Assembly (NCBI RefSeq): GCF_900111565.1
Contig: NZ_FOIK01000001.1
Coordinates: forward strand, 558,001-622,000
Reading direction: 5' to 3'
Length of the DNA stretch: 64,000 bases
DNA from: Paenibacillus sp. NFR01
Lineage (GTDB): Bacteria > Bacillota > Bacilli > Paenibacillales > Paenibacillaceae
Shown here: piece by piece, positions 6,699-19,943 of the stretch
Numbering within the stretch: the stretch's first letter is position 1
Layout of the letters: the number at the start of each line of letters is the position of its first letter
The notes under the pieces: generated by a model
The model's database searches: none
What the model was told of the DNA's origin: nothing
The model's input: only the letters and a program-made list of their open reading frames with translations
Program-made: the position numbers and the translations under genes

Positions 6699-7062
6699 TT
6701 GAGGAAAAAGAACCATAACGTGAGCATAACCCCGCCGGCTGTGCTTGTAGAAGATTTTGCCCCCTGATCATGGAATTTTCCCCCTATCCAATCCCATCCA
6801 TTTCCGTGACAATAGAATTGTCTCCGATTATCCAAAAGTTAACATTTGACCCATGCTTATTCCATTTGCTGCGCTTATTTTCTGCTGCCTTCTGCCGCTC
6901 TCATATCCTACCAAATCACCTGCTAGAATTTGGAGTTAAAACCGCCCATAGATTGTGCCGATAGTGAAGGCAAGCGTATGGCGCAAGGAGGTGACCGGGA
7001 AATCCCGTTTCTGCGGAGGTTGGATTGCGATGCAAGAAACCATTGAAGGAGGCGCAAAGGAA
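6699..7062 (+). promoter_or_regulatory. Chitinase upstream region
   Basis: A 364-base gap with no convincing gene. An extended -10-like TGCTAGAAT lies at 6921-6929, about 130 bases before the chitinase start, but no good -35 pairs with it. A clear ribosome site (GAAGGAGGCGCAAAGG) precedes the ATG at 7063. Transcription probably starts in this region, but the promoter call is weak. Confidence 0.3.
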
Positions 7063-8751
7063 ATGAGATTTTTCAACGGCAAAAAACGCAGAATGGTCTC
7101 TGTCGGAATGATCGTAGCGCTAATTTTTTCGCTTTTTCCTGTCTTTGGGACAAACCTAAAATCCGTTCAGGCGGCAACGAATTACAAGCTGGTCGGCTAC
7201 TATGCATCCTGGGCTGCCTATGGCAGAGCGTATAATGTGTCGGATATCGATCCAACCAAGCTGAACGTCATCAATTATGCGTTTGCGGACATTTGTTGGA
7301 ACGGCATCCACGGCAATCCGGATCCTACGGGACCGAATCCCGTCACCTGGACCTGCCAGAACGAGCAAAGCCAGACGATTAACGTGCCGAACGGCACCAT
7401 TGTTCTTGGCGATCCCTGGATCGATGCCGGAAAAAGCTTCGGCGACGACAAATGGGACGATCCAATCAAAGGCAATTTGAAGCAGCTGTGGAAGCTGAAA
7501 GACCGTAATCCGAACTTGAAAACGGTGATTTCGGTCGGCGGCTGGACGTGGTCGAACCGGTTCTCGGATGTGGCCGCAACCGCAACGACGCGCGAGGTTT
7601 TTGCAAACTCCGCCGTTGATTTTATCCGCAAATACAAGATGGACGGCGTCGATCTTGACTGGGAATATCCGGTGAGCGGCGGCCTGGCCGGAAACAGCTA
7701 CCGCGCCGAAGACAAGCAGAACTATGTTCTGCTGCTGCAAAAAATCCGTGAGAAACTGAACGCGGCAGGTACCGCCGACGGCAAAACCTATCTGCTGACC
7801 ATCGCCTCCGGTGCAAGCCCGGCGTATGTCCAGAATAACAATCTGGCCGGCATTGCCTCCGTCGTCGACTGGATCAACATCATGACCTATGACTTTAACG
7901 GAAGCTGGAATACGACGACCGGGCATAACGCCCCGCTTTATTACGATCCTGCGGCGGCCAGCTCGGGCCTGACTGATCCGGCCAATTACAATATCGACAA
8001 AGCAGTCACCAACTATTTGCAAAATGGCGTACCTGCCAGCAAGCTTGTGCTCGGCATGCCGTTCTACGGCCGTGGCTGGGGCGGGGCTCCAAGCACGGGC
8101 AACGGGCAATACCAGGTATCGTCCGGCATTTCAAACACGGGAACCTGGGAGAAGGGCAACTATGATTTCTCTGACCTGGAGGCCAACTATATCAACAAGA
8201 ACGGCTATACCCGTTACTGGAACAATACCTCCAAGGTTCCGTTCCTGTACAATCCGTCCACGCAAACATTCATAAGTTACGACGACGTGGAGTCGTTCGG
8301 CTACAAAACGGCTTATATCAAGAGCAAAGGCCTTGCCGGCGCCATGTTCTGGGAAACGAGCGGGGACCGCAACAAAACGCTGACCAATAAGCTATATACG
8401 GATCTCGGCAGCGGCATCGTGCCCACGCCAACACCGACTGCCAGCCCGACGGCTACGCCAACGCCAACGCCGACGCCAACTGTAAAACCTTCGGCTACGC
8501 CAACCGTTACGCCTACACCGACGCCAACGGTTAAGCCTTCGGCGACGCCAACCCCGACCCCGACGCCTTCAGTGACGCCGACCCCAACGCCAACCGCAAC
8601 TTCGGGTGCTAATGCCTGGGTGGCGGGAAAAGCCTATAAAGTCGGCGATATCGTGACTTATGGCGGTAAAACCTACTCCTGCCTGCAAGCCCATACCTCC
8701 TTGCAGGGCTGGGAGCCGGTAAACACGCCTGCGCTTTGGAAGCTGCTTTGA
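7063..8751 (+). CDS. Secreted GH18 chitinase with C-terminal chitin-binding module
   Basis: A secreted modular endo-acting chitinase of 562 residues. A basic, hydrophobic signal peptide ends at VQA|A (about residue 35). The GH18 barrel begins with [13 protein letters not shown] and contains the SVGGW strand and the catalytic signature DGVDLDWE with the general acid Glu201; MTYDF follows further on. Residues about 453-515 are a Pro-Thr-rich linker made of TPTPT-type repeats. A compact carbohydrate-binding module of the CBM5/12 type ([12 protein letters not shown]...LWKLL) closes the protein. GH18 enzymes cleave beta-1,4 GlcNAc bonds with substrate-assisted catalysis. An in-frame extension upstream to 6955 is possible, but the ATG at 7063 has the GGAGG and puts the signal peptide at the N-terminus. 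It is monocistronic. Confidence 0.93.
8419..8604 (+). repeat. Pro-Thr linker-coding repeats
   Basis: An in-frame array of ACGCCAACN-type codons and short blocks ([12 protein letters not shown]) encodes the linker between the GH18 domain and the binding module. Such tracts are prone to length variation between strains. Confidence 0.85.
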
Positions 8752-8910: not shown

Positions 8911-9110
8911 ACGGACCTGGGCGCCGTTATTGGAGTAGATGTCAGCAGGTACGGAGGGCTAAGGCTTCGCGTAACTTCCTAACGGACCTGAGCGACGCTA
9001 TTACACTGATAATCGCATTTGAAAGCGCATTCGCATGTGAATAACGGCTTTCAGGTCCGTTAGATTGCATATTTTCTGATATTGCGGCGAATAGCGGCTC
9101 TGGTGTCCGT
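8911..9110. repeat. Four ACGGAC...TATT repeat units, two in each orientation
   Basis: Four related 21-base units occur in 200 bases. Units at 8911-8931 and 8982-9002 read ACGGACCTG...GyTATT on the plus strand. Units at 9040-9060 and 9090-9110 are the same sequence on the minus strand. Units 2 and 3 face each other and could pair as a long stem with a loop of about 37 bases. The region is non-coding and lies between the chitinase terminator and the AraC gene. It looks like a dispersed intergenic repeat family; no other copy was noticed in the window. Confidence 0.7.
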
Positions 9111-9120
9111 TAGGTCGCTG

Positions 9121-9460
9121 GCTCGCTTAGAGTCGTGCTGTTGCTCAGAGCGCTGCCGCTGCTCCACATAGAGTTCGCTACTGTTCTGCTCAGAATTTGC
9201 TGCTTCTGGTTTGGATTCTTTTGCTGCTCTCACCAGAACTGTGCCACTGCTCTGGTGGATGTTATGCAGCCGTCTCAGCCCTGAGTTCAGCAGCTAATCA
9301 CTCCGGAATTGTGCTCCGGCTCTGCCCAGAGTTATGCTTAGGCTCTGTTAGTAATGTGCTCAGCCCACAATTGTACTCCTGCTTAACCCCTTGCGCTGCT
9401 GCCGCTACGCTAGTATTGCGACGCATCTCTGCTCAGCGCACTACAGTACTGCTTTGACCA
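9121..9460. repeat. Degenerate CTGCTC/CAGAGTT-rich non-coding tract
   Basis: About 340 bases are dominated by variants of GCTCTGCTC, CAGAGTT and GTGCTC with no fixed period. The bias towards CT on one strand and lack of a supported gene suggest a decayed tandem-repeat array. A reading frame at 9197-9457 exists only because stops are rare in this composition, and it is not called as a gene. Confidence 0.5.
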
Positions 9461-9510
9461 TTCGCCCTTATACAATTCGCTTATGCAATTCGCACTTTAG
9501 CAATCCGCTC
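9459..9510 (+). repeat. Short CAATTCGC direct repeats
   Basis: CAATTCGC occurs at 9473-9480 and 9486-9493 and as CAATCCGC at 9501-9508, with a related CCATTCGC before them. The period is 13-15 bases. No function is evident. Confidence 0.5.
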
Positions 9511-9555
9511 TATTTCTATTCTCTCTTTTGATCTTCCCTTGTTTGAAATGCTATA

Positions 9556-9594: not shown

Positions 9595-10485
9595 TTAGCG
9601 CTCTTTGGCGAATTTGCTGCGGAATGCGGAGGGCGAGAGGCCTTCCTTTTTGGAGAAGCAGGAGGAGTAATGCGACACATGGCGGAAGCCCACTTCTTCG
9701 GCAATGCGCGCGACGGGCCAGGAGGTCTGGAGCAGCAGCCGCTTGGACTGCTCGATCCGGTAATACTGCAGATAAGCCATTGGGGTCATGCCAAAGACCT
9801 TCAGCATGCTTTTGGCCAGGTAATTAGGATGGTAGTTCAGTTCTTTTTGCAGGACAGGGTTGGTCAAATCGTGCATATAATTGCTGCGGATGTACAGCTC
9901 GACCTGCTCGGCCAGATGGATCGCCGTAGCGTCGCTCGGAGAAGACAGGTCCCGGTCCAGATGCTGCAGGAAGGACTGGAAGGTGGCCTGGCGCCGCCAG
10001 TTGCGCATCGACTTCGGCTCCGATTCCTGTTCAAAGAACAGATCCAGCAGTTCCATCGCTTTCGAGGTAATTCTCATATGCTTCGGGATAAAAATCGAGC
10101 AGACATCAACGTGGTTGAGGTAGGCTTTATTTTTGTGCTCCTCAAACAACATCTGCTGATTGCCCAGACATTCGTTCATATCGGCGCATTCCTGCCAGCT
10201 GCCGAACGTCTGGAAATGAATCCAGATGATCTCTGTTTCCGCGGTGCAGGGCGCGCTGCCGTAGTGGTGGCCGTCCGGTAGAAGGATGAGGCCCTCGCCT
10301 TCCTGAAGCTCCCACAATCTGCCGTTCTCCCCTACCGGAAGACTGCCCTTCACAACAACGATCAGATCAAACACGCCAATGCAGTTGCGGTCGATATGAT
10401 AATCTCCGATCTCGTACGAGGCATGCCCGCAATCGACGAAATAGGGAATGGGCGGGGAGATGAAATGCAGGATGGGCACATTCAT
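9595..10485 (-). CDS. AraC-family regulator of the GH127/importer locus
   Basis: A 296-residue AraC/XylS-type transcription factor. The N-terminal part (about 1-150) is a cupin-like sugar-sensing fold with the GEGLILLPDGHHY strand. The C-terminal 100 residues form two helix-turn-helix motifs, ending with VARIAEEVGFRHVSHYSSCFSKKEG. The ATG has GGAGGAG upstream. It is divergent from the GH127 gene with 217 bases between them. That gap holds a two-box element of GGTTGAA repeats 21 bp apart, which fits the two HTH units of an AraC-type protein. Three further copies of the element lie in the downstream locus, so this protein is the likely local activator. Binding itself is inferred. Confidence 0.9.
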   Translation of the reverse strand: MNVPILHFISPPIPYFVDCGHASYEIGDYHIDRNCIGVFDLIVVVKGSLPVGENGRLWELQEGEGLILLPDGHHYGSAPCTAETEIIWIHFQTFGSWQECADMNECLGNQQMLFEEHKNKAYLNHVDVCSIFIPKHMRITSKAMELLDLFFEQESEPKSMRNWRRQATFQSFLQHLDRDLSSPSDATAIHLAEQVELYIRSNYMHDLTNPVLQKELNYHPNYLAKSMLKVFGMTPMAYLQYYRIEQSKRLLLQTSWPVARIAEEVGFRHVSHYSSCFSKKEGLSPSAFRSKFAKER

Positions 10486-10503: not shown

Positions 10504-10531
10504 GGTTGAAAATATTAAAAATCAGGTTGAA
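10504..10531 (+). promoter_or_regulatory. Two-box operator A (GGTTGAA x2, 21 bp apart)
   Basis: Direct repeats GGTTGAA at 10504-10510 and 10525-10531. A TATTAT -10-like hexamer follows at 10565-10570 for the GH127 promoter. The element also lies only 19 bases from the AraC start, so autoregulation is possible. Confidence 0.65.
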
Positions 10532-10571
10532 TAACCTTGTTTATTTAAATGGTAGCTCATGTCATATTATA

Positions 10572-10587
10572 TGTAAAGCGCTTTCTT
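10572..10587 (+). promoter_or_regulatory. cre-like CcpA site before GH127
   Basis: TGTAAAGCGCTTTCTT lies just after the predicted -10 of the GH127 promoter. The right arm matches the cre consensus fully; the left arm is one base too long. Its place after the -10 would allow carbon catabolite repression. Confidence 0.45.
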
Positions 10588-10702
10588 AAATAGTGTAATC
10601 GTATAAATGTTCACAATGGCAATGGCTTAATTCCATACTGCGAGACGTTGCTTGCCGGCCGAGTCAGAGGCAAAGCCGGTAAAGAGAGGAGAGTTCCGGG
10701 AA

Positions 10703-12622
10703 ATGATTCAGATTCAAGATACGTTCTGGTCCGAGTATGTGCGCCTTGTGCGCGAAGTCATGGTTCCCTACCAATGGGAGGTGCTGAACGACCGCGTGGA
10801 AGGTGCAGAGCCGAGCCACGCCATCGCCAATTTCCGGATTGCCGGCGGCACAGAAGACGGCGAATTTTACGGCATGGTATTCCAGGACAGCGATGTCGCC
10901 AAATGGCTGGAAGCTGTGGCGTACTTGCTGGAGACCCGACCCGATCCGCAGCTGGAAGAAGTAGCCGACAACGTCATTGATATTGTCGTGCTGGCGCAGC
11001 GGGCCGACGGCTATCTCAATACGTATTTTACGCTCAAGGAGCCCGGCCGCGAGTGGACAGATTTGGCGGAGTGTCATGAGCTCTACTGCGCGGGACATAT
11101 GATTGAGGCGGCGACCGCGTATTTCCGGGCTACCGGCAAACGCAAGCTGCTCGACGCCGTCTGCCGGTTTGCCGATTACATCGATACGGTGTTTGGAACC
11201 GAGCCGGGTAAGCTGCAGGGCTATGACGGACACCAGGAAATCGAGCTGGCGTTGGTCAAATTGTTCCATGCCACCGGCGAAGAGAAGTATTTGCGGCTGA
11301 GCCGGTATTTTCTGGACCAGCGTGGAACGAAGCCGTATTTCTTTGAGGAGGAATGGGAAAAACGCGGACGGACGCTGCATTTTTCGAATCTTTCAATGGT
11401 CCACGACCATGCGTACAGCCAGTCGCATCTTCCGGTGCGGGAGCAGGACGATGCGGAAGGCCATGCGGTCCGGCTGGTCTACATGTGTACGGCAATGGCG
11501 GATATTGCGGCCGAAACCGGCGACGCCGGCATGCTCGCCGCCTGCGACCGGCTGTGGGACAGCATTGTCAACAAGCGGATGTACATTACCGGGGGAATCG
11601 GTTCAATGGAGCATGGAGAATCGTTTACCGCCGATTACGATCTGCCGGGCGATCTGGCGTATGCCGAGACCTGCGCTTCGGTCGGCCTGATCTTTTTTGC
11701 CCGGCGCATGCGCAAGCTCCGCCGGAGCAGCGCTTACGCAGACATTATCGAACGTGCGCTGTACAACACGGTGATCAGCGGGATGTCGCTGGACGGCACC
11801 AAATTCTTTTACGTCAATCCGCTGGAGGTCTATCCGGACGTCATCGGCAAAAACAAAAACTACGATCATGTGAAGCCGGAACGGCAAGGCTGGTTCACCT
11901 GCGCCTGCTGTCCGCCCAATGTGGCCCGGCTGCTCGCTTCGCTCGGAGAGTATATTTACGTGCAGGAGGAGAACCGGCTGTCGGTTGAACTCTACATCGG
12001 AAGCACCATCCAGGCGGAACTGGGCGGCATTCCGGTAACGATCCGCCAAGAGTCGAGCTATACGTCGGAAGGCCGGAGCCGGTTCATCGTTGATCCGGAA
12101 TCGCCGGGAGTATTTACGCTTGCCCTGCGCATGCCGGACTGGTGCGAGGAGGCGAAAATTACCGTTAATGGCGAAATGCAGGAATATAACACAGGAGATG
12201 TAGAAGGGTATATCGTGCTGGAACGCAGCTGGCAGGCGGGGGATACGGTCGAGGCCTGGTTTGCAATGCCGGTCAAGGAAATGGAGAGCCATCCGCTCGT
12301 CCGCCAGACCTTCGGCAAAACCGCCCTGCAGCGCGGGCCGTTCGTCTATTGCCTGGAAGAAGCCGACAACGGCAAGCGGTTGTATCAGCTGCGGCTTTCC
12401 GGGGAACACCGTTACATCATCGGAACTACGCAATGGATTCCAGGCGGTGTGAAAGTGATCTCCGCTCCGGGTTACCGCCTGAAGCCGGAAACGCAGTGGG
12501 GAGACAGTTTGTACCGTCCGGGTTCGCCGCAATCGGCAGAGGCTGCCGAACTGTCCTTTATCCCTTATTTCGCATGGGCCAACCGAGGGGTAGGCGAGAT
12601 GTCCGTCTGGGTCGGCCTATAG
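10703..12622 (+). CDS. GH127 beta-L-arabinofuranosidase
   Basis: A cytoplasmic glycoside hydrolase of 639 residues, with no signal peptide. GH127 enzymes such as HypBA1 release beta-L-arabinofuranose using a zinc-bound cysteine nucleophile. The catalytic set is visible: Glu322 and Cys324 in AETCAS, and Cys402-Cys403 in FTCACCPPN. These match Glu338, Cys340, Cys417 and Cys418 of HypBA1 in order and, within one residue, in spacing. The N-terminal part fits the alpha/alpha barrel and the C-terminal part the beta domains. The ATG at 10703 was chosen because AAAGAGAGGAGAG precedes it; an upstream in-frame start lacks a ribosome site. It is the first gene of the locus, and its substrate is probably delivered by the importer encoded next. 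Confidence 0.9.
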   Translation: MIQIQDTFWSEYVRLVREVMVPYQWEVLNDRVEGAEPSHAIANFRIAGGTEDGEFYGMVFQDSDVAKWLEAVAYLLETRPDPQLEEVADNVIDIVVLAQRADGYLNTYFTLKEPGREWTDLAECHELYCAGHMIEAATAYFRATGKRKLLDAVCRFADYIDTVFGTEPGKLQGYDGHQEIELALVKLFHATGEEKYLRLSRYFLDQRGTKPYFFEEEWEKRGRTLHFSNLSMVHDHAYSQSHLPVREQDDAEGHAVRLVYMCTAMADIAAETGDAGMLAACDRLWDSIVNKRMYITGGIGSMEHGESFTADYDLPGDLAYAETCASVGLIFFARRMRKLRRSSAYADIIERALYNTVISGMSLDGTKFFYVNPLEVYPDVIGKNKNYDHVKPERQGWFTCACCPPNVARLLASLGEYIYVQEENRLSVELYIGSTIQAELGGIPVTIRQESSYTSEGRSRFIVDPESPGVFTLALRMPDWCEEAKITVNGEMQEYNTGDVEGYIVLERSWQAGDTVEAWFAMPVKEMESHPLVRQTFGKTALQRGPFVYCLEEADNGKRLYQLRLSGEHRYIIGTTQWIPGGVKVISAPGYRLKPETQWGDSLYRPGSPQSAEAAELSFIPYFAWANRGVGEMSVWVGL

Positions 12623-12649
12623 GGTGAAAATCTGCAAAATCCGGTTGGA
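12622..12649 (+). promoter_or_regulatory. Two-box operator B
   Basis: GGGTGAA at 12622-12628 and GGTTGGA at 12643-12649 repeat with the same 21-bp spacing. The first base is the last base of the GH127 stop codon. A lone half site, GGTTGTA, follows at 12686-12692. Confidence 0.5.
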
Positions 12650-12711
12650 ATTTATGATCCTGGAATACGGCTAGCGGCCTCATCGGGTTGTACCGAGTGG
12701 CGTCATGTAAA

Positions 12712-12739
12712 GGTTGTAATTTCTAAAAATCAGGTTGTA
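12712..12739 (+). promoter_or_regulatory. Two-box operator C
   Basis: GGTTGTA at 12712-12718 and again at 12733-12739, 21 bp apart. A CAGAAT -10-like hexamer lies at 12771-12776, the same distance downstream as in copies A and D, so this is the probable promoter of the binding-protein gene. Confidence 0.65.
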
Positions 12740-12780
12740 AAATGCTATTTTGCTTCAAAGAAAATCATGACAGAATACAA

Positions 12781-12795
12781 ATGAAGCGCTTTCTA
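12781..12795 (+). promoter_or_regulatory. cre-like CcpA site before the binding-protein gene
   Basis: ATGAAGCGCTTTCTA immediately follows the predicted -10. The right half GCGCTTTCT is identical to that of the site before GH127; the left half is weak. Confidence 0.4.
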
Positions 12796-12901
12796 AAATA
12801 ACATAAATCAGATCCATCAGACACACGATCCATCAGGCTGTTGAGGTGCAGGGGGCAGACAGGCAAACCAATTCATGTAAATGATGAAGGGAGAGCGAAA
12901 C

Positions 12902-14311
12902 ATGAAAGCAGGAAAAGCATTGGGGGCAGGAATTCTTTCAGGGGTATTGGCATTAAGCGTGATCGGCTGCGGGAACAACGACAATAACACGAACAACGCG
13001 GCATCCAAGACAAACGAACCGGCCAAAGCAACCGAGGACACCTCTAAACCCGGGAAAAAGGTCAAAATCGTCTATTCGATGTGGGGCAGCGCGGAAGAAG
13101 GGAACACCACCCAGAAGGTGGCGGATAAGTTCAATGCCTCCCAGGACAAAATCGAAGTCGAAGTGCAAGCCATTCCGTGGGAAAATTACATGACCAAGCT
13201 GAACACGCTGGCAACCGCGAAGCAGCTTCCCGACACCGGAATGCTGCGCGAAGATGGGGTCGTCCAATGGTCCTCTCAAGGCATGCTGAATGATGTCAGC
13301 TCGATGTATGACGGTACCGACAGTAAACCGCTCGATAGCTTGGCCTACAAATATCAAGGCAAAACCGTAGCCTATGCGGCCGCCAATGAAATCCTGCTCC
13401 TGTATTACAACAAAGACATGTTTGACAAGGCCGGCGTCGCTTACCCGCCATCCGCTCTGGATAAAGCCTGGACCTGGGACGAATTCGTGACCACGGCCAA
13501 GAAGTTGACCAACGACAAAAACGGCAAGCATCCGGGCGACGACGGTTTCGACTCGCAGAGCATCGTGCAGTTCGGCGCATCCGTCGAGAATCTGCCATGG
13601 CAGCTGGAGACCTGGGCACTGGGCAACGGCGGAGGATTCTATTCGGGCGATGGAACCGAGGTGAGAATCGGGGAAGACGCTAGCATGGAAGCGATTCAAA
13701 AAGTCGCGGACCTGTACCTGAAGGACCATGTGGCTCCGCTGTCCGTTGGACAGACCGATGACGGCATACAGCGTACGATCATCGCGGGAACAGTCGCCAT
13801 GGCCACGAACGGCGCGTGGAACGTCGGAACAAGCTTGAATACGGCCAAGAAGGAAGGCCTGAATTACGGCGTGGCGGTTTTGCCTTACATGAAAGATAAG
13901 GTTACGCTCAACACCGGTGGCGCCAATGTCGTATTCTCGCAAACAAAACATCCGGCAGAAGCGATGGAATGGCTGAAATGGTATAATTCGGAAGAAAATA
14001 ACTGGGGTCTGATCAGCGAAGGCATCTGGATGCCGACACTGCAGAAATGGTATACGGATGAGACGCTTACCCGCAAATGGGTAGAGAACCCGAACTTCCC
14101 TCCTTATGAAGAATACAAATCCGCAGTAGTCGATTACGCGCAATCTTCGGCCGTGAAGCCCGCATCCTGGTTCTACACCAATCACACAACGGAATTTAAT
14201 ACCTTGCTCGGATCGATCCTGGGCGATGTCTGGACCGGCAAGACAACCGCCAAGGACGCGATCACCAAAAATCTGGATGCGCTGAAGGCCGCGCATTCAG
14301 GCAACAACTAA
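12902..14311 (+). CDS. ABC transporter sugar-binding lipoprotein (family 1)
   Basis: An extracellular solute-binding lipoprotein of 469 residues. The type II signal peptide ends in the lipobox LSVIGC with Cys23 as the lipidation site, followed by an Asn/Thr-rich spacer. The mature protein begins KVKIVYSMWGSAEE and has the length and aromatic content of MalE/CUT1-type binding proteins. It should capture a di- or oligosaccharide and deliver it to the two permeases encoded downstream. The ATG at 12902 is favoured by GAAGGGAG upstream. Given the neighbours, an arabinofuranose-containing oligosaccharide is the likely ligand, but this is an inference. No ATPase gene is in the locus, as is usual for importers sharing MsmX. 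Confidence 0.9.
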   Translation: MKAGKALGAGILSGVLALSVIGCGNNDNNTNNAASKTNEPAKATEDTSKPGKKVKIVYSMWGSAEEGNTTQKVADKFNASQDKIEVEVQAIPWENYMTKLNTLATAKQLPDTGMLREDGVVQWSSQGMLNDVSSMYDGTDSKPLDSLAYKYQGKTVAYAAANEILLLYYNKDMFDKAGVAYPPSALDKAWTWDEFVTTAKKLTNDKNGKHPGDDGFDSQSIVQFGASVENLPWQLETWALGNGGGFYSGDGTEVRIGEDASMEAIQKVADLYLKDHVAPLSVGQTDDGIQRTIIAGTVAMATNGAWNVGTSLNTAKKEGLNYGVAVLPYMKDKVTLNTGGANVVFSQTKHPAEAMEWLKWYNSEENNWGLISEGIWMPTLQKWYTDETLTRKWVENPNFPPYEEYKSAVVDYAQSSAVKPASWFYTNHTTEFNTLLGSILGDVWTGKTTAKDAITKNLDALKAAHSGNN

Positions 14312-14323
14312 CAGGCAGCATAG

Positions 14324-14366
14324 ATGGCCGCTGCGGAGCTTGACCGGGCATGCGGCGGCCATATTT
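14324..14366 (+). terminator. Intercistronic hairpin after the binding-protein gene
   Basis: ATGGCCGC pairs with GCGGCCAT, followed by ATTTTAAT. Such a hairpin would lower permease expression relative to the binding protein, by partial termination or by protecting the upstream mRNA. Confidence 0.55.
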
Positions 14367-14389
14367 TAATCGGCAGGTGGGAGAGAGAG

Positions 14390-15313
14390 ATGGATACGAT
14401 TAAAAAAGCTCCACGGCGGCGTTCCCGCATTAACGCAAGCGAGGCGCGCGTCGCTTATCTATTATTGATTCCTGCCTTTCTCGGACTGATCTTTCTGACA
14501 TACCTGCCCCTGATCGGGGTGCTGGGAATCAGTTTGACCAACTGGACGGGATTGGCAAAACCCGAGTTTATCGGCTTGGATAATTACATCGATCTATTTA
14601 CAAAGGACCCTTATATTAAGGATTCAATTATCGCGACAATCTATTTCGCCGTCTTATCCGTCATCGGCAGCATGCTCTATTCGCTTTTCATCGCGATGCT
14701 GCTGAACCGTAAAATTCCGGCCAGAGGCTTTTTCAGAGCGGTATTCTATGTTCCGTATGTTCTGCCGGCGGCCGCCATTTATGTAGGCTGGTCCTGGCTG
14801 TACGAAGCGAACTTCGGCTTTTTCAACTTTCTTCTGTCGGAGGCCGGACTCCATAAAGTTTCGTTTATCGCCGACTCCAGTTATGTTGTTCCGTCGCTGT
14901 CCCTGATTTCAGTCTGGTTGTCGGGGAACCTGATCGTTATTTTTCTCGCCGGGCTGCAAAATGTTCCTGGCGTCTATCATGAAGCCGCCGAAATCGACGG
15001 CGCGAACGGCTGGCAGCGGTTTGTGCACATCACGTTGCCCTGCATGTCGCCGATTATCTTTTACAATCTGCTCATGAGCCTGATCGCCAATCTCCAGATC
15101 GTTACGCCGGCCCTTTCCCTGACCAATGGCGGCCCGGGCAATTCCTCGCGGTTTTTGACTTATTTGATGTATGACCAGGCGTTTGTGAACTACAGGCTGG
15201 GTTATGCCTGCGCAACGACAGCCATTATCTTTGTTATTCTTGCCGCTTTTACCGGCGTGTTGTTCAAAACCTCTAACCGGTGGATCTTCGATGAAGGGGG
15301 CGACGACAAGTGA
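14390..15313 (+). CDS. ABC sugar permease, MalF/UgpA type
   Basis: A membrane permease of 307 residues with six hydrophobic segments. The EAA loop that contacts the ATPase is visible as EAAEIDGANGWQRF...LP in the last third. The ATG at 14390 has GGTGGGAGAGAGA before it, and the helices then begin near residue 22. The stop overlaps the next permease start as GTGA, so the two subunits are coupled. It forms the heterodimeric channel of the CUT1-type importer with that gene. The ATPase is expected elsewhere in the genome. Confidence 0.9.
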   Translation: MDTIKKAPRRRSRINASEARVAYLLLIPAFLGLIFLTYLPLIGVLGISLTNWTGLAKPEFIGLDNYIDLFTKDPYIKDSIIATIYFAVLSVIGSMLYSLFIAMLLNRKIPARGFFRAVFYVPYVLPAAAIYVGWSWLYEANFGFFNFLLSEAGLHKVSFIADSSYVVPSLSLISVWLSGNLIVIFLAGLQNVPGVYHEAAEIDGANGWQRFVHITLPCMSPIIFYNLLMSLIANLQIVTPALSLTNGGPGNSSRFLTYLMYDQAFVNYRLGYACATTAIIFVILAAFTGVLFKTSNRWIFDEGGDDK

Positions 15314-16179
15314 GCGATCTGGCCTACGGCAAATTGAAAAGCAAAAAACGCACCAACCGGATGATGAACCTGATCTCACTGGTCGTGATCGTGTTCTTCG
15401 CCATCCTTGTCCTTTTTCCGATCTGGTGGATCTTCCGCACTTCCCTGATGTCCAATGCCGAGATTTACAAATATCCGCCGGCGCTGCTGCCGGGACATTG
15501 GCTGTTCTCCAACTATGAGAAGACGCTGGATGTTTTCAAGTTTTGGCGATACCTGTGGAACACGCTGATTATCATCGTGCCCTCGTGTTTGGCGGGTACC
15601 TTTACGGCTACCCTATGCGGTTATGCCTTTGCGAGACTGCGGTTCTGGGGCAAAAAATTCATCTGGACGCTGTGCGTCGGTTCGATGCTCCTGCCGGCCA
15701 TGGTTACGCTCATTCCGCTGTACATCGGCTGGACGCGCGGGCTCGGCATTCATGACAGTTACCTGCCGCTCATCCTGCCGTATTTCTGCGGCGGCGGCGC
15801 ATTTAATATCTTTCTGATCCGGCAGTTTATTGTCTCGATCCCGCGGGAGCTTGACCAGGCCGCAACGATCGACGGCGCCGGATACATCCGCATCCTGTTC
15901 AGCATCATCATGCCGGCAATCAAATCGGCGATGATCGTAGTCGCCTTATTCATCTTCATCGGACTGTGGAACGACCTGCTGCAGCAAATGATTTATATCA
16001 ATTCCAGCGATAAATATACGATCGCCCTGGGGCTGACCGCCTTCAGGGGGCAGCTCAAGCAGGACTGGTCGCTGACAATGGCCGCCACCTGCATGTCCTT
16101 TGCGCCGGGCGTCATTTTCTATCTGATCGGTCAAAAATATTTCGTGGAAGGCATCACGCTGACCGGAATGAAAAATTAA
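15310..16179 (+). CDS. ABC sugar permease, MalG/UgpE type
   Basis: A permease of 289 residues with six transmembrane segments and the EAA-type loop ELDQAATIDGAG...MP. It starts with GTG inside the stop codon of the preceding permease gene. It is the second half of the CUT1 channel, serving the lipoprotein encoded at 12902. The C-terminus ends with the usual GQKYFVEGITLTGMKN, a common MalG-type tail. A terminator follows at 16198. Confidence 0.92.
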   Translation: MSDLAYGKLKSKKRTNRMMNLISLVVIVFFAILVLFPIWWIFRTSLMSNAEIYKYPPALLPGHWLFSNYEKTLDVFKFWRYLWNTLIIIVPSCLAGTFTATLCGYAFARLRFWGKKFIWTLCVGSMLLPAMVTLIPLYIGWTRGLGIHDSYLPLILPYFCGGGAFNIFLIRQFIVSIPRELDQAATIDGAGYIRILFSIIMPAIKSAMIVVALFIFIGLWNDLLQQMIYINSSDKYTIALGLTAFRGQLKQDWSLTMAATCMSFAPGVIFYLIGQKYFVEGITLTGMKN

Positions 16180-16197
16180 TAGGCGGATTTTTCGGAG

Positions 16198-16240
16198 AAG
16201 GCACGATTTCCTTAATGTTGAAGGGGACGTGCCTTTTTTT
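16198..16240 (+). terminator. Rho-independent terminator of the importer operon
   Basis: AAGGCACG pairs with CGTGCCTT, with partial pairing inside, and runs into TTTTTTT. The next gene therefore needs its own promoter. Confidence 0.8.
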
Positions 16241-16259
16241 GCCGGAAGCTTGTTCAGCA

Positions 16260-16287
16260 GGTTAAAATCCTTAAAAATAAGGTTGGA
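16260..16287 (+). promoter_or_regulatory. Two-box operator D before the secreted protein gene
   Basis: GGTTAAA at 16260-16266 and GGTTGGA at 16281-16287, 21 bp apart. TATTAT at 16321-16326 sits 34 bases after the second box, as in copy A. No cre-like site is present here. Confidence 0.6.
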
Positions 16288-16406
16288 ATCCATGATATCT
16301 ATTGAGTGAGGTTTATGCAATATTATAGATGAATTCCTATTTAATAGAATTTTAAGGAAGGAGGAGCATTTGGCAATCGGTATTCTAACTCTAAGGAGGT
16401 TATGGT

Positions 16407-19400
16407 GTGCTGAAGAAATTTCAGAGTCAACGCGTGAAAAAGATGTCGTTAAGTGCGGTTGTCCTTGCTGCGGCATTAGGCGTTTTTTGGTTTGCCCGTC
16501 CTGCTTACGCTTATGACTTATCAAGCAGCAATTTTCAGGTAAGCACAGGCTCGAACGGCGACATTACCAGCCTGAAGCTGGCCGGGGACAACTATCCGAC
16601 CAATTACGTGATGAACGCAACCAACGCTCCCAACCAGAATACGGCCGACCATCAGTGGCTCGGTGAGCTGATGTTTACGTACCGGCTGAATAACGGTGCC
16701 TGGACCAAAGCGTGGACCAGCAAATCAGCGGATGCCCGGACCCAGAGCCAGACGGGAAATACGGTAAATGTCGTCTATCAAAATTCGGCTAACACCGAAG
16801 GTATACGCAATTTTCGGGTCAATGAAAGCTATTCTCTTGTAAGCGATTACTTGCTCTGGCAAATTCAGGTGACCAATACAAGCACGCAGACGCTGGAGAT
16901 CGGCGATTTCGGCCTCCCGCTTCCGTTCAACGAATTCTGGACCGGCGGCGGCAATGAGCAGATCTATGAGACGCGGGTCGTTACACAATCCTTCATCGGC
17001 AATAACAGTTCATATGTCACCGTACAGCGTCCAAGCGGAATCGGACCGTCGCTCCTGCTCGTTCCCGACAGCACGACCGGTGCAGGATTCGAATACATGG
17101 ACAACTGGCGCATCCAGGACCATGCCGGCAGTAAATGGGCGGGAGACCAAGGGGGCTGGGTCGAAGGACTCTCGGTCTACTATATCCACTCCAATGTCAT
17201 TAAAAGCACCGGCAGAGGGTATTTGAACAACACCAGCCTGACGCTGGCGCCGGGCGCGAGCAAAACCTATTCGTTCAAGTTCTTCAAATCCGCCAGCGAG
17301 CAAGCGACGAAGGACCGGCTTTATTCCGAAGGAATGATCGACACGACCGTTGTGCCGGGCATGATTGTTCCGACCGACCAGACCGCGAAATTCGACCTGC
17401 GGACATCCAAGACGATCACTTCGGTCACGGCGCAATATCCATCCGAAACGACAGTGACTTCCCTGGGCACGACTTCCGGAGACCATAAGCTGTACTCGCT
17501 GAAAATGAGCCATCTCGGCCCGAATAATATCACCGTGAACTACGGTTCCGGCGAGACGACGACCCTGCAGTTCTACGCCATTGAACCGGTGGCGAATGCG
17601 CTTCAGCGGCATGCCACGTTCATGGTTAACAACCAGCAATGGAATGTGCCGGGCGATATCCGGGATAAAGTGTTCGACGACTGGATGATGCAGACCAAAG
17701 CGAAACGGAACAATTTTGCCGGGTACTGGGGCTGGGGCGACGACTGGGGTTACACCCATGCGCAATTCCTGGCCGAGAAAAATGTCCAGAATCCGGTCGC
17801 TTCGGAAATCACTGCACTCGACCAGTATTTGAAAGTCGCAATTTGGGGCAATCTGATGGCCGATCATCATACCGATTATCTGGTGCCGGATTTCCTGATG
17901 GCTGCGCCGAATACGACGCCGACTTACCGGGGCTACGCGTATCCGCATATTTACAATACGTACTTCAGCATGTACAAAATATCCAAGCTATACCCGGGCC
18001 TGATCGCGTACACCGAAACGAGCAATACCTATCTGATGAGGGCTTACAACATTATGAAAGCGCTCTATGACGGACCGGTCGCCTATAACTGGAATACCGG
18101 CCTCATGGGAGAGGTCACCACGCCGGATATCATCAAAGCTCTGCAAACCGAAGGCTACACGGCGCAGGCCAACGATCTGATCTCTAAAATGAACACCAAA
18201 TATAACAATTTCGCTGCCACGACCTATCCGTACGGCTCGGAATACAACTACGACAATACCGGCGAGGAAGCCGTTTATATGCTGGCCAAGATGAACAACA
18301 ACAACACGATCAAGAGTAAAATCAACACCAAAACCCGTGCGGTGCGCGGAAAAATGCCGGTCTGGTATTTCTACTCCGATCCGGTGACCATCAACGGCGA
18401 GCCATGGTGGCAATTCCAGTACACGGCTGCGCTGGCCGGAACGGCCATGGATGACTGGGTACGCAACAATTCGGCGACGCCGGAAGTGGAACAGCGCTTG
18501 AGCTACGCGGCCAAATTGGCGAACCTGAGCGCCATCAACTCCGGGCAAATCAGTTCCGACGCGGCGAATATCGGAGCCGTCTCCTGGACCTATCAGGCGA
18601 TGAAGGGCAACAACGGCGCACTCGGTCTGGACGGAGGACCGCTGTTCAACGGGTGGCGGGGCATGTCCGGGGAAGCCGATCTGGGACTGTTCGGCGCCAT
18701 CAAGCTGCTGAGCTCCGACGTAGCCGTTGACCCGATCTTCGGCCTTTACGGCTATGGCTGCGAGGTCACCGACAGCGGTGGCAACTATGTCGTCGTTCCG
18801 AAAGACGGGGTGTTCCAGCGGCTGAACCTCATCACGGAAAAATGGGGCATGACGCTGGAGCGCGACCGCTATACCCAAGCTACGGTTGCCAAGGCGAAGA
18901 ACGGCGTGAGCTTTACCCTTAGCAATGCGACGCCGGGAACCGCCCACACCACCAAAGTGTCCTTCACGGGTCTGGTTGCAGGAACTTATAATGTGACTGT
19001 CAATAATGTCGCATCCGGCAGCTTTACGGCAGTGAGCGGCCAGACGGCGACCGCATCGCTGAACATCGGCACCAGTGCCAGCTATACCGTGTCGATCCAG
19101 CCGGGAAACCCTGTTCCGGTACCGAGCGTCATCGTGAACTATAACATGAACCAAACCTCCGGTACGACGGTCACCGATTCCTCTGGCGCGGCTAACCATG
19201 CGGTGCTCAGCGGAACAACGAGCTGGACCACAGGCCGCACAGGCGCCGGCAATGCGCTTACTTTAAGCGGCAGCAATGGTTATGCGACCTTGCCTACGGG
19301 AGTCGTCAGCTCACTGAACGACTTCACGATTTCGGCATGGGTACGCATTACGTCAAACAGCGATTGGGCGCGAATTTTCGATTTCGGCTCCGGCACCGGA

Positions 19401-19943
19401 AGCTATATGTTTCTGGCGCCGCAGTCCGGCGGGGGCGGCGGCATGCGCTTTGCGATTACGGGCAGCGGCAACGGCTCGGAGCAGCAGCTGACGGCGAGCA
19501 GCCCGCTGACCGTCGGGCAATGGAAGCATGTCGCGGTAACGCTGTCCGGCACGACAGGCCGCCTGTATGTCGACGGCGTTCAGGTTGCGGTCAATACGAA
19601 CATGACGCTGAAGCCTTCCAGTCTTGGCGCGACCACCCAGAATTACATCGGAAAATCGCAGTTCAACGATCCTTACCTGAACGGAGCGGTGGATGACTTC
19701 ATCATTTACAGCCGCGCGCTCAGCGCAGCGGAAATCTCCTCCTTGTTCGGAGGGGCGACGATCCAAAGCCTCACAGGTGAGAAAGCGACGGATTTGCTGC
19801 AATCCGAGGATCCGTCTGCAACGCCTAGCGGGGAGCCATCCGTGAAGCCAACGGAAGAACCGGCAGCCGAGCCTGCAGCTGGGCCGTCCGCTGAGCCCGG
19901 GCTTCCGGCAGATGTTGCACCTGCCCTGCCAGATAAGGTTTAA
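16407..19943 (+). CDS. Large secreted LamG-domain protein, putative glycan-active enzyme (DUF5695-like)
   Basis: A secreted protein of 1178 residues. The signal peptide ends at AYA|Y near residue 36. Residues about 40-300 look like a beta-sandwich domain. A region rich in Trp, Tyr and helices follows (about 400-850, with WGWGDDWGYTHAQF and WWQFQYTAAL), suggesting an alpha/alpha-barrel-like catalytic domain. A LamG/concanavalin-like module occupies about 910-1125, and a Pro-Glu-Ala-rich tail ends the protein without an LPXTG motif. The overall organisation resembles DUF5695-type proteins, whose activity I do not know. The GTG start has AAGGAGGT upstream. Operator D and the neighbours suggest it attacks the polymer whose fragments the locus imports. 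No catalytic residues can be assigned. Confidence 0.65.
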   Translation: MLKKFQSQRVKKMSLSAVVLAAALGVFWFARPAYAYDLSSSNFQVSTGSNGDITSLKLAGDNYPTNYVMNATNAPNQNTADHQWLGELMFTYRLNNGAWTKAWTSKSADARTQSQTGNTVNVVYQNSANTEGIRNFRVNESYSLVSDYLLWQIQVTNTSTQTLEIGDFGLPLPFNEFWTGGGNEQIYETRVVTQSFIGNNSSYVTVQRPSGIGPSLLLVPDSTTGAGFEYMDNWRIQDHAGSKWAGDQGGWVEGLSVYYIHSNVIKSTGRGYLNNTSLTLAPGASKTYSFKFFKSASEQATKDRLYSEGMIDTTVVPGMIVPTDQTAKFDLRTSKTITSVTAQYPSETTVTSLGTTSGDHKLYSLKMSHLGPNNITVNYGSGETTTLQFYAIEPVANALQRHATFMVNNQQWNVPGDIRDKVFDDWMMQTKAKRNNFAGYWGWGDDWGYTHAQFLAEKNVQNPVASEITALDQYLKVAIWGNLMADHHTDYLVPDFLMAAPNTTPTYRGYAYPHIYNTYFSMYKISKLYPGLIAYTETSNTYLMRAYNIMKALYDGPVAYNWNTGLMGEVTTPDIIKALQTEGYTAQANDLISKMNTKYNNFAATTYPYGSEYNYDNTGEEAVYMLAKMNNNNTIKSKINTKTRAVRGKMPVWYFYSDPVTINGEPWWQFQYTAALAGTAMDDWVRNNSATPEVEQRLSYAAKLANLSAINSGQISSDAANIGAVSWTYQAMKGNNGALGLDGGPLFNGWRGMSGEADLGLFGAIKLLSSDVAVDPIFGLYGYGCEVTDSGGNYVVVPKDGVFQRLNLITEKWGMTLERDRYTQATVAKAKNGVSFTLSNATPGTAHTTKVSFTGLVAGTYNVTVNNVASGSFTAVSGQTATASLNIGTSASYTVSIQPGNPVPVPSVIVNYNMNQTSGTTVTDSSGAANHAVLSGTTSWTTGRTGAGNALTLSGSNGYATLPTGVVSSLNDFTISAWVRITSNSDWARIFDFGSGTGSYMFLAPQSGGGGGMRFAITGSGNGSEQQLTASSPLTVGQWKHVAVTLSGTTGRLYVDGVQVAVNTNMTLKPSSLGATTQNYIGKSQFNDPYLNGAVDDFIIYSRALSAAEISSLFGGATIQSLTGEKATDLLQSEDPSATPSGEPSVKPTEEPAAEPAAGPSAEPGLPADVAPALPDKV

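Follow-up and report, generated by a model that had tools for sequence, protein, structure and literature searches.

Probable two-box operators of a predicted AraC-family activator of arabinofuranoside genes in Paenibacillus and Cohnella

We analysed 64,000 nucleotides of Paenibacillus sp. NFR01 (GCF_900111565.1, contig NZ_FOIK01000001.1, positions 558,001-622,000, in a genome of 5.39 Mb). This whole stretch, hereafter the window, contains four pairs of GGTTGnA-type boxes around the genes for a GH127 enzyme, an ATP-binding cassette (ABC) importer and a secreted protein with a DUF5695 domain. The four pairs are very probably operators of the AraC-family protein encoded next to them (296 aa, 9595..10485, minus strand), which is predicted to bind all four and to activate the genes for the use of arabinofuranosides. 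The sites, their spacing, their conservation, their co-occurrence with the regulator, the genes that they precede and the predicted geometry of the promoters support this reading.

The pairs start at 10504/10525 (operator A, 10504..10531), 12622/12643 (operator B, 12622..12649), 12712/12733 (operator C, 12712..12739) and 16260/16281 (operator D, 16260..16287). All are on the plus strand and their boxes are exactly 21 bp apart, as a preliminary description of this DNA had reported. Operator A lies in the divergent region between the regulator and the GH127 gene, B overlaps the stop codon of GH127 and lies 90 bp ahead of C, C precedes the importer, and D precedes the gene of the secreted DUF5695 protein. 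The plain box pattern (GGTTGNA-N14-GGTTGNA) is matched in full by operators A and C; in B (GGGTGAA) and D (GGTTAAA) the first box deviates at one base. The consensus is longer than the boxes described earlier, as all four operators share an AAAAT tract at positions 15-19. The refined pattern, GGTTGnAn(4)Tn(2)AAAAWn(2)GGTTGnA, is matched exactly by A and with one mismatch by each of B, C and D.

With at most one mismatch, the window contains four pairs at 21 bp, all within 10.4-16.5 kb, and three pairs in total at the 22 other spacings from 10 to 32 bp (one each at 15, 26 and 32). With at most two mismatches the count is only mildly unusual, i.e., nine pairs versus 3.9 expected from dinucleotide shuffles, 2 of 100 of which reached nine. 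When the AAAAT spacer was included, the four operators were the sole matches with at most one mismatch in the whole 5.39-Mb genome, which had three further matches at two mismatches and none to the reversed pattern.

The preliminary description would have been refuted had such pairs been absent, or without their spacing, near orthologues of the regulator; we found them present and regularly spaced. In a search of 200 genomes, including that of the window, orthologues of the divergent AraC gene were identified in 33 of the 199 relatives (58-90% identity, E-values of 3e-102 or better, the next homologue being at 44%). We retrieved about 20 kb around each of these 33 genes and around seven more distant or paralogous ones. 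In the 33 orthologue loci, exact GGTTGNA pairs number 15 at 21 bp, and no other spacing between 8 and 60 bp has more than one; the seven outgroup or paralogue loci contain none at 21 bp. All 34 genomes with the regulator (the 33 relatives and the window's own) have a site within about 14 kb. The refined pattern has 21 exact matches, spread over 15 of these 34 genomes, and none in 34 relatives lacking the orthologue, 25 of which encode a more distant relative of the regulator (E-values of 1e-40 or better). A control pattern with the wrong spacing (20 bp, up to three mismatches) was not enriched, being found in 29/34 orthologue genomes and 29/34 control genomes. In 24 of the 33 loci the site is no more than 270 bp away on the divergent side of the orthologue itself; 19 have it between +16 and +25 relative to the start codon, and five between +207 and +268.

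The matrix that we used for scanning has 29 positions and was built from 18 distinct sites of the orthologue loci and the window. Only the 19 loci added later are new to it. It gave a single match of at least 15 in 1.7 Mb of reversed sequence, both strands counted; in the window, B scores 28.0, D 34.5 and C 42.8. The later loci come from a scan of named genomes, which returned 29 loci, ten on contigs already used and 19 new (Paenibacillus and Cohnella). The best site scored at least 24 in 17 of the 19 new loci, compared with a best score of 14.2 in reversed sequence over the 29 loci; three of these 17 sites have exactly the sequence of a training site, and several do not differ from one another. 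When the 200 genomes were searched strictly, 29 had matches, 23 of them with the orthologue; the reversed control of this search matched four genomes. Two of the strict-search matches (L090 in genome G094 and L101 in G083) lie where an AraC gene of 33-35% identity is next to a remote GH127 relative, and low-scoring matches adjoin unrelated genes (L079, L088, L091, L095, L106).

The placement of the pairs relative to the predicted promoters is consistent with AraC activator sites. Among 41 non-redundant promoters with predicted start sites, the best -10 hexamer starts 37-41 bp past the start of the second box in 35. The control stretch gave 15 of 41, and ties favoured this place in both scans. 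The -35 hexamers are poor, with 2-4 of 6 matches in 40 of the 41 promoters. The predicted 17-bp half-sites of A and D span about -73 to -57 and -52 to -36, adjoining the -35. A -10-like hexamer had been reported 32-34 bases after the second box in A, C and D. It is found at 33 bp in A (TATTAT, 10565..10570) and D (TATTAT, 16321..16326), and C departs slightly, with a weak CAGAAT at 31 bp (12771..12776), all three on the plus strand. In A and D, transcription would start about 7 bases past the TATTAT.

The sites resembling a catabolite-responsive element (cre) that had been noted after the -10 of A and C are also present, as AAAGCGCTTT at 10575..10584, over the predicted transcription start of promoter A, and as AAGCGCTT at 12784..12791 in promoter C (both plus strand); B and D have none. 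A scan with a loose core pattern, without shuffled control, gave cre-like cores in 15/16 promoters of solute-binding proteins, 6/6 of GH127, 6/7 of GH51, 0/4 of DUF5695 and 4/8 of other genes. Because the four DUF5695 promoters (positions 16260-16330 of the window, L051, L094 and L098) lack such a core, catabolite repression may not reach the secreted DUF5695 enzyme. In another genus, some DUF5695 promoters (L063, L065) carry a cre-like core.

The proposal that a single circuit joins the GH127 enzyme, the importer and the secreted protein agrees with the relatives, where sites precede the same kinds of genes. The genes downstream of the high-scoring sites, both those of the strict search and those at 12 more places, encode DUF5695, GH127 or solute-binding proteins. 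Pfam was run on eight proteins downstream of sites; in locus L230 the downstream gene has no Pfam match and its reading frame is truncated by the locus end. The description of a local AraC regulon holds for the four operators of the window and not for its strictly local extent, which we rejected on a weaker site (score 17.0) 166 kb from operator A (G000:C4:402773-402800, positions 1501-1529 of L005). This site precedes a GH51 gene encoding an alpha-L-arabinofuranosidase (Alpha-L-AF_C, E-value 3e-44). Furthermore, nine of the 33 orthologue loci encode a full-length GH51 relative just past the regulator's 3' end; about 120 bp ahead of each lies a site scoring at least 15. Given these GH51 sites in its own genome and in the nine loci, the regulon extends past the window. 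Its likely purpose is the uptake and cleavage of plant oligosaccharides containing L-arabinofuranose.

In the AraC family, both helix-turn-helix (HTH) motifs of one subunit occupy one 17-bp half-site. The earlier suggestion that 21 bp between direct repeats suits a two-HTH AraC protein was right about the spacing, which is of the AraC type; the repeat itself would reflect two subunits, and not the two HTH motifs of one. We infer binding, activation, the ligand, autorepression and control by CcpA from the following arrangement. Each operator would consist of two half-sites in head-to-tail order, GGTTG followed by an A-rich tract, one per subunit of a dimer. Since the second half-site abuts the -35 region, a dimer with bound ligand would bring RNA polymerase to promoters whose -35 is poor (class II activation). 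Operator A would serve the GH127 gene, C, perhaps assisted by B, the importer, and D the secreted DUF5695 protein, with GH51 as a further target elsewhere in the genome. The first box of A is separated by 18 bp from the regulator's start codon and adjoins its ribosome-binding site, and because A is directly upstream of that site the regulator likely represses its own synthesis through it. Finally, CcpA would probably shut the GH127, importer and GH51 genes through the cre over their starts, sparing the DUF5695 promoter.

The closest known switch is that of Escherichia coli AraC at araI1-araI2 of the araBAD promoter, a place of class II activation, with 17-bp half-sites spaced by 21 bp, an overlap with the -35 and a regulator gene divergent from its target. 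The window shares with it the direct half-sites 21 bp apart, the second of them by the -35, the divergent regulator and arabinose-related targets. In contrast to E. coli, the boxes read GGTTG...AAAAT, a cre stands in place of the CRP site, the targets are oligosaccharide genes and not araBAD, and an upstream loop site like O2 is not established. The switching of AraC between a loop and an adjacent pair, in the araI1/araI2/araO2 scheme, is described in PMC4760080.

Several results weigh against this reading. The loci share descent, and the counts given here are not independent events. The observed scan for -10 hexamers included a small bonus for common -10 words, without equivalent in the control. 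Promoter B has no clear -10 and that of C is weak. In many relatives the importer beside the site is another one, with proteins about 25-29% identical. At two mismatches or fewer, the refined pattern does not discriminate, being matched in 34/34 orthologue genomes and 31/34 control genomes. In nine of the 33 orthologue loci, each at 58-61% identity, no site within 700 bp on the divergent side reaches a score of 15; their sites are 2.5-13 kb away on the other side of the regulator, inside the fetched locus in six and 10-13 kb off in three (G086, G094, G189). Two of the 19 new loci, L266 with a shortened regulator and L267 with one at 52% identity, have no site. Lastly, the control genome G003, which lacks the orthologue, has a strong site (32.7) ahead of a DUF5695 gene (L237, G003:C18:48800-52900). 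As for L266, on a contig of Paenibacillus albidus, only residues 206-296 of the regulator are matched, the adjacent GH51 matches are split in two, and no operator was found; it looks like a decayed locus.

A strong site without an orthologue, as in G003, would fit a rival reading in which the pairs are bound by another regulator, e.g., a paralogue of the same AraC subfamily encoded elsewhere, and the adjacent AraC gene controls something else. The window's genome encodes two paralogues of the regulator, at 40 and 42% identity, and GH127-adjacent paralogues have a related sequence at an equivalent place. In L073, L074 and L075, the last in the window's own genome, this diverged sequence (TGTGAAATATTATAAAAAA..GTTG and variants) lies 24-41 bp from the start codons of paralogues beside GH127. 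It beat all 200 shuffles in L074, and was matched by 41% of shuffles in L073, 36% in L075 and 6.5% in L071. The likeness of these operator-like sequences of the paralogues thus rests on wording and position, and it is statistically clear in L074 only. It suggests that regulator and operator change together in AraC-GH127 pairs. We nevertheless find another regulator highly improbable, as the site accompanies the orthologue in all 34 genomes, most often on its divergent side, and has no exact match in the 34 genomes without it, most of which encode a distant relative.

The regulator might instead repress through these sites, arabinose-type sugars releasing the repression. The position of the first box of A next to the regulator's ribosome-binding site and the third half-site that some promoters have past their predicted start would fit such a mechanism, yet the forward promoters have the pair ending just ahead of a poor -35, which is the geometry of activation. 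We therefore consider repression unlikely. That the pairs are a chance or coding-driven pattern has a negligible probability. At two mismatches the plain boxes reach about twice their expectation in the window and the refined pattern matches nearly every genome, but the peak of spacing at 21 bp, the specificity of exact matches, the prediction of sites in new loci and the gene context led us to reject it. Activation by the adjacent regulator is our preferred explanation.

Two elements upstream of the importer are not conserved. The lone GGTTGTA box of the preliminary description is present at 12686..12692 (plus strand), but eight out of eight relatives lack a box at the corresponding distance (26 bp) ahead of their importer operator. 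Single half-sites occur at other places upstream, the best at -133 in L248 (score 12.2). We rejected the lone box as a conserved element, the position being empty in 8/8 relatives, and it may be due to chance. Operator B was likewise rejected as a conserved auxiliary site. Because a pair at the equivalent distance (90 bp) ahead of the importer operator is missing from all eight relatives, B would be, despite its high score, either particular to this lineage or a remnant.

Some promoters have a further GGTTG..AAAA half-site 86-90 bp past the first box, inside the predicted leader. It is clearest ahead of GH51 (L005 in the window's own genome, L038, L054), at the site of L043 described below and in the divergent promoters of L046, L050 and L054. 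A test with the strict matrix was suggestive. In a softer test, the best match fell at +87 to +90 in 13 of 41 promoters (mean of 6.6 with permuted matrices, 8 of 500 of which reached this count). With a stricter cut on redundancy (below 60% identity), 10 of 37 promoters had their best match at +86 to +90 (null mean 2.3, reached by 1/500), and among promoters of new loci alone this was the case for 3 of 15 (reached by 17/500). These sets include the window's B-to-C pair, whose distance is also 90 bp; otherwise the window has a degenerate copy in A and none in C and D. The third half-site near +88 is a probable accessory feature of a subset of promoters, with an uncertain role. In L043, a GH51-type operator with a third half-site and a cre-like core lies at about -1012 from the regulator start without a GH51 gene downstream; it is now aimed at the 3' end of the regulator and is perhaps the remnant of a lost gene.

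The regulator has a C-terminal double-HTH domain (Pfam HTH_18, 2e-20 over residues 214-290; HTH_AraC, 3e-16 over 252-289), and its N-terminal match to AraC_binding (PF02311) scores 20.8 bits, just under the cut-off of 21.1. The NCBIfam equivalog model of E. coli AraC gives it 55 bits, below the cut-off of 208. The GH127 gene (10703..12622, plus strand; Pfam 2e-111) probably encodes a beta-L-arabinofuranosidase, its best sequence match in the PDB being the enzyme 4qjy (9e-246). We rejected an aceric acid hydrolase (NCBIfam NF049879, 457 bits for a cut-off of 950). The importer comprises a solute-binding lipoprotein (12902..14311; SBP_bac_1, 1e-29), matched best in the PDB by the arabino-oligosaccharide-binding protein 6rjy (6e-22), and two permeases (14390..15313 and 15310..16179; BPD_transp_1), all on the plus strand. 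The secreted protein, encoded at 16407..19943 (plus strand), combines DUF5695 (Pfam 1e-72) and LamG domains. Between an upstream open reading frame (6955-8751) and the regulator's 3' end, positions 9001-9540 are oddly rich in C, T and G and hold no convincing gene.

Both 4qjy and 6rjy presumably come from Geobacillus, and the GH127 beta-L-arabinofuranosidase and arabino-oligosaccharide-binding protein of its arabinan utilisation clusters are the nearest solved sequences to those of the window. The likeness is drawn from the genes, and the binding protein of the window is a distant relative. In PMC4428132, such an arabinan cluster holds an importer and alpha- and beta-L-arabinofuranosidases, and the AraC regulators in its cluster tables adjoin histidine kinases.

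The DUF5695 protein is related by profile and predicted fold to the PL27 enzyme BACCELL_00875, an L-rhamnose-alpha-1,4-D-glucuronate lyase of gum arabic. A profile of 17 DUF5695 homologues matches BACCELL_00875 with a whole-sequence E-value of 7e-8, in three weak collinear stretches. The predicted structure of the DUF5695 protein is of moderate confidence (mean pLDDT of 73), and BACCELL_00875 is by far its best Foldseek match (6e-24, TM-scores of 0.67 by target and 0.52 by query; next match at 3e-7). Both proteins have a beta region followed by a helical one, and they differ by an identity of 16% and a root-mean-square deviation of 6.1 A in the Foldseek alignment. PMC8377490 describes this layout for PL27, N-terminal beta region first, and reports that PL27 takes rhamnose caps off gum arabic. 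Together, the relation to PL27 and this action suggest arabinogalactan-type substrates for the DUF5695 protein. We tentatively raise, as a possible though doubtful extension, a regulon for arabinogalactan-proteins (gum-arabic-type glycans), in which the PL27-like DUF5695 protein would uncap side chains and the importer, GH127 and GH51 would import and cleave the L-arabinofuranosides. This extension adds, for part of the clade, an AraC dimer that would bridge the tandem pair and the half-site about 88 bp downstream without inducer, the promoter being looped out or blocked, and would close onto the tandem pair with inducer.

These results point to a new regulon with a well-known type of switch. 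No regulon of this kind is described in the accessible parts of PMC4867992 and PMC4428132, and in the open literature, to which our survey was confined, we found DUF5695 only in a table on fungal proteins, where it labels a domain, in a source available in part. From sequence alone, and with support in loci outside the training set, the analysis gives a predicted operator code for an AraC subfamily found alongside GH127 enzymes in Paenibacillus and Cohnella. It also ties DUF5695, a domain of unknown function according to Pfam, to the use of arabinofuranosides and to PL27, whose activity it may share.

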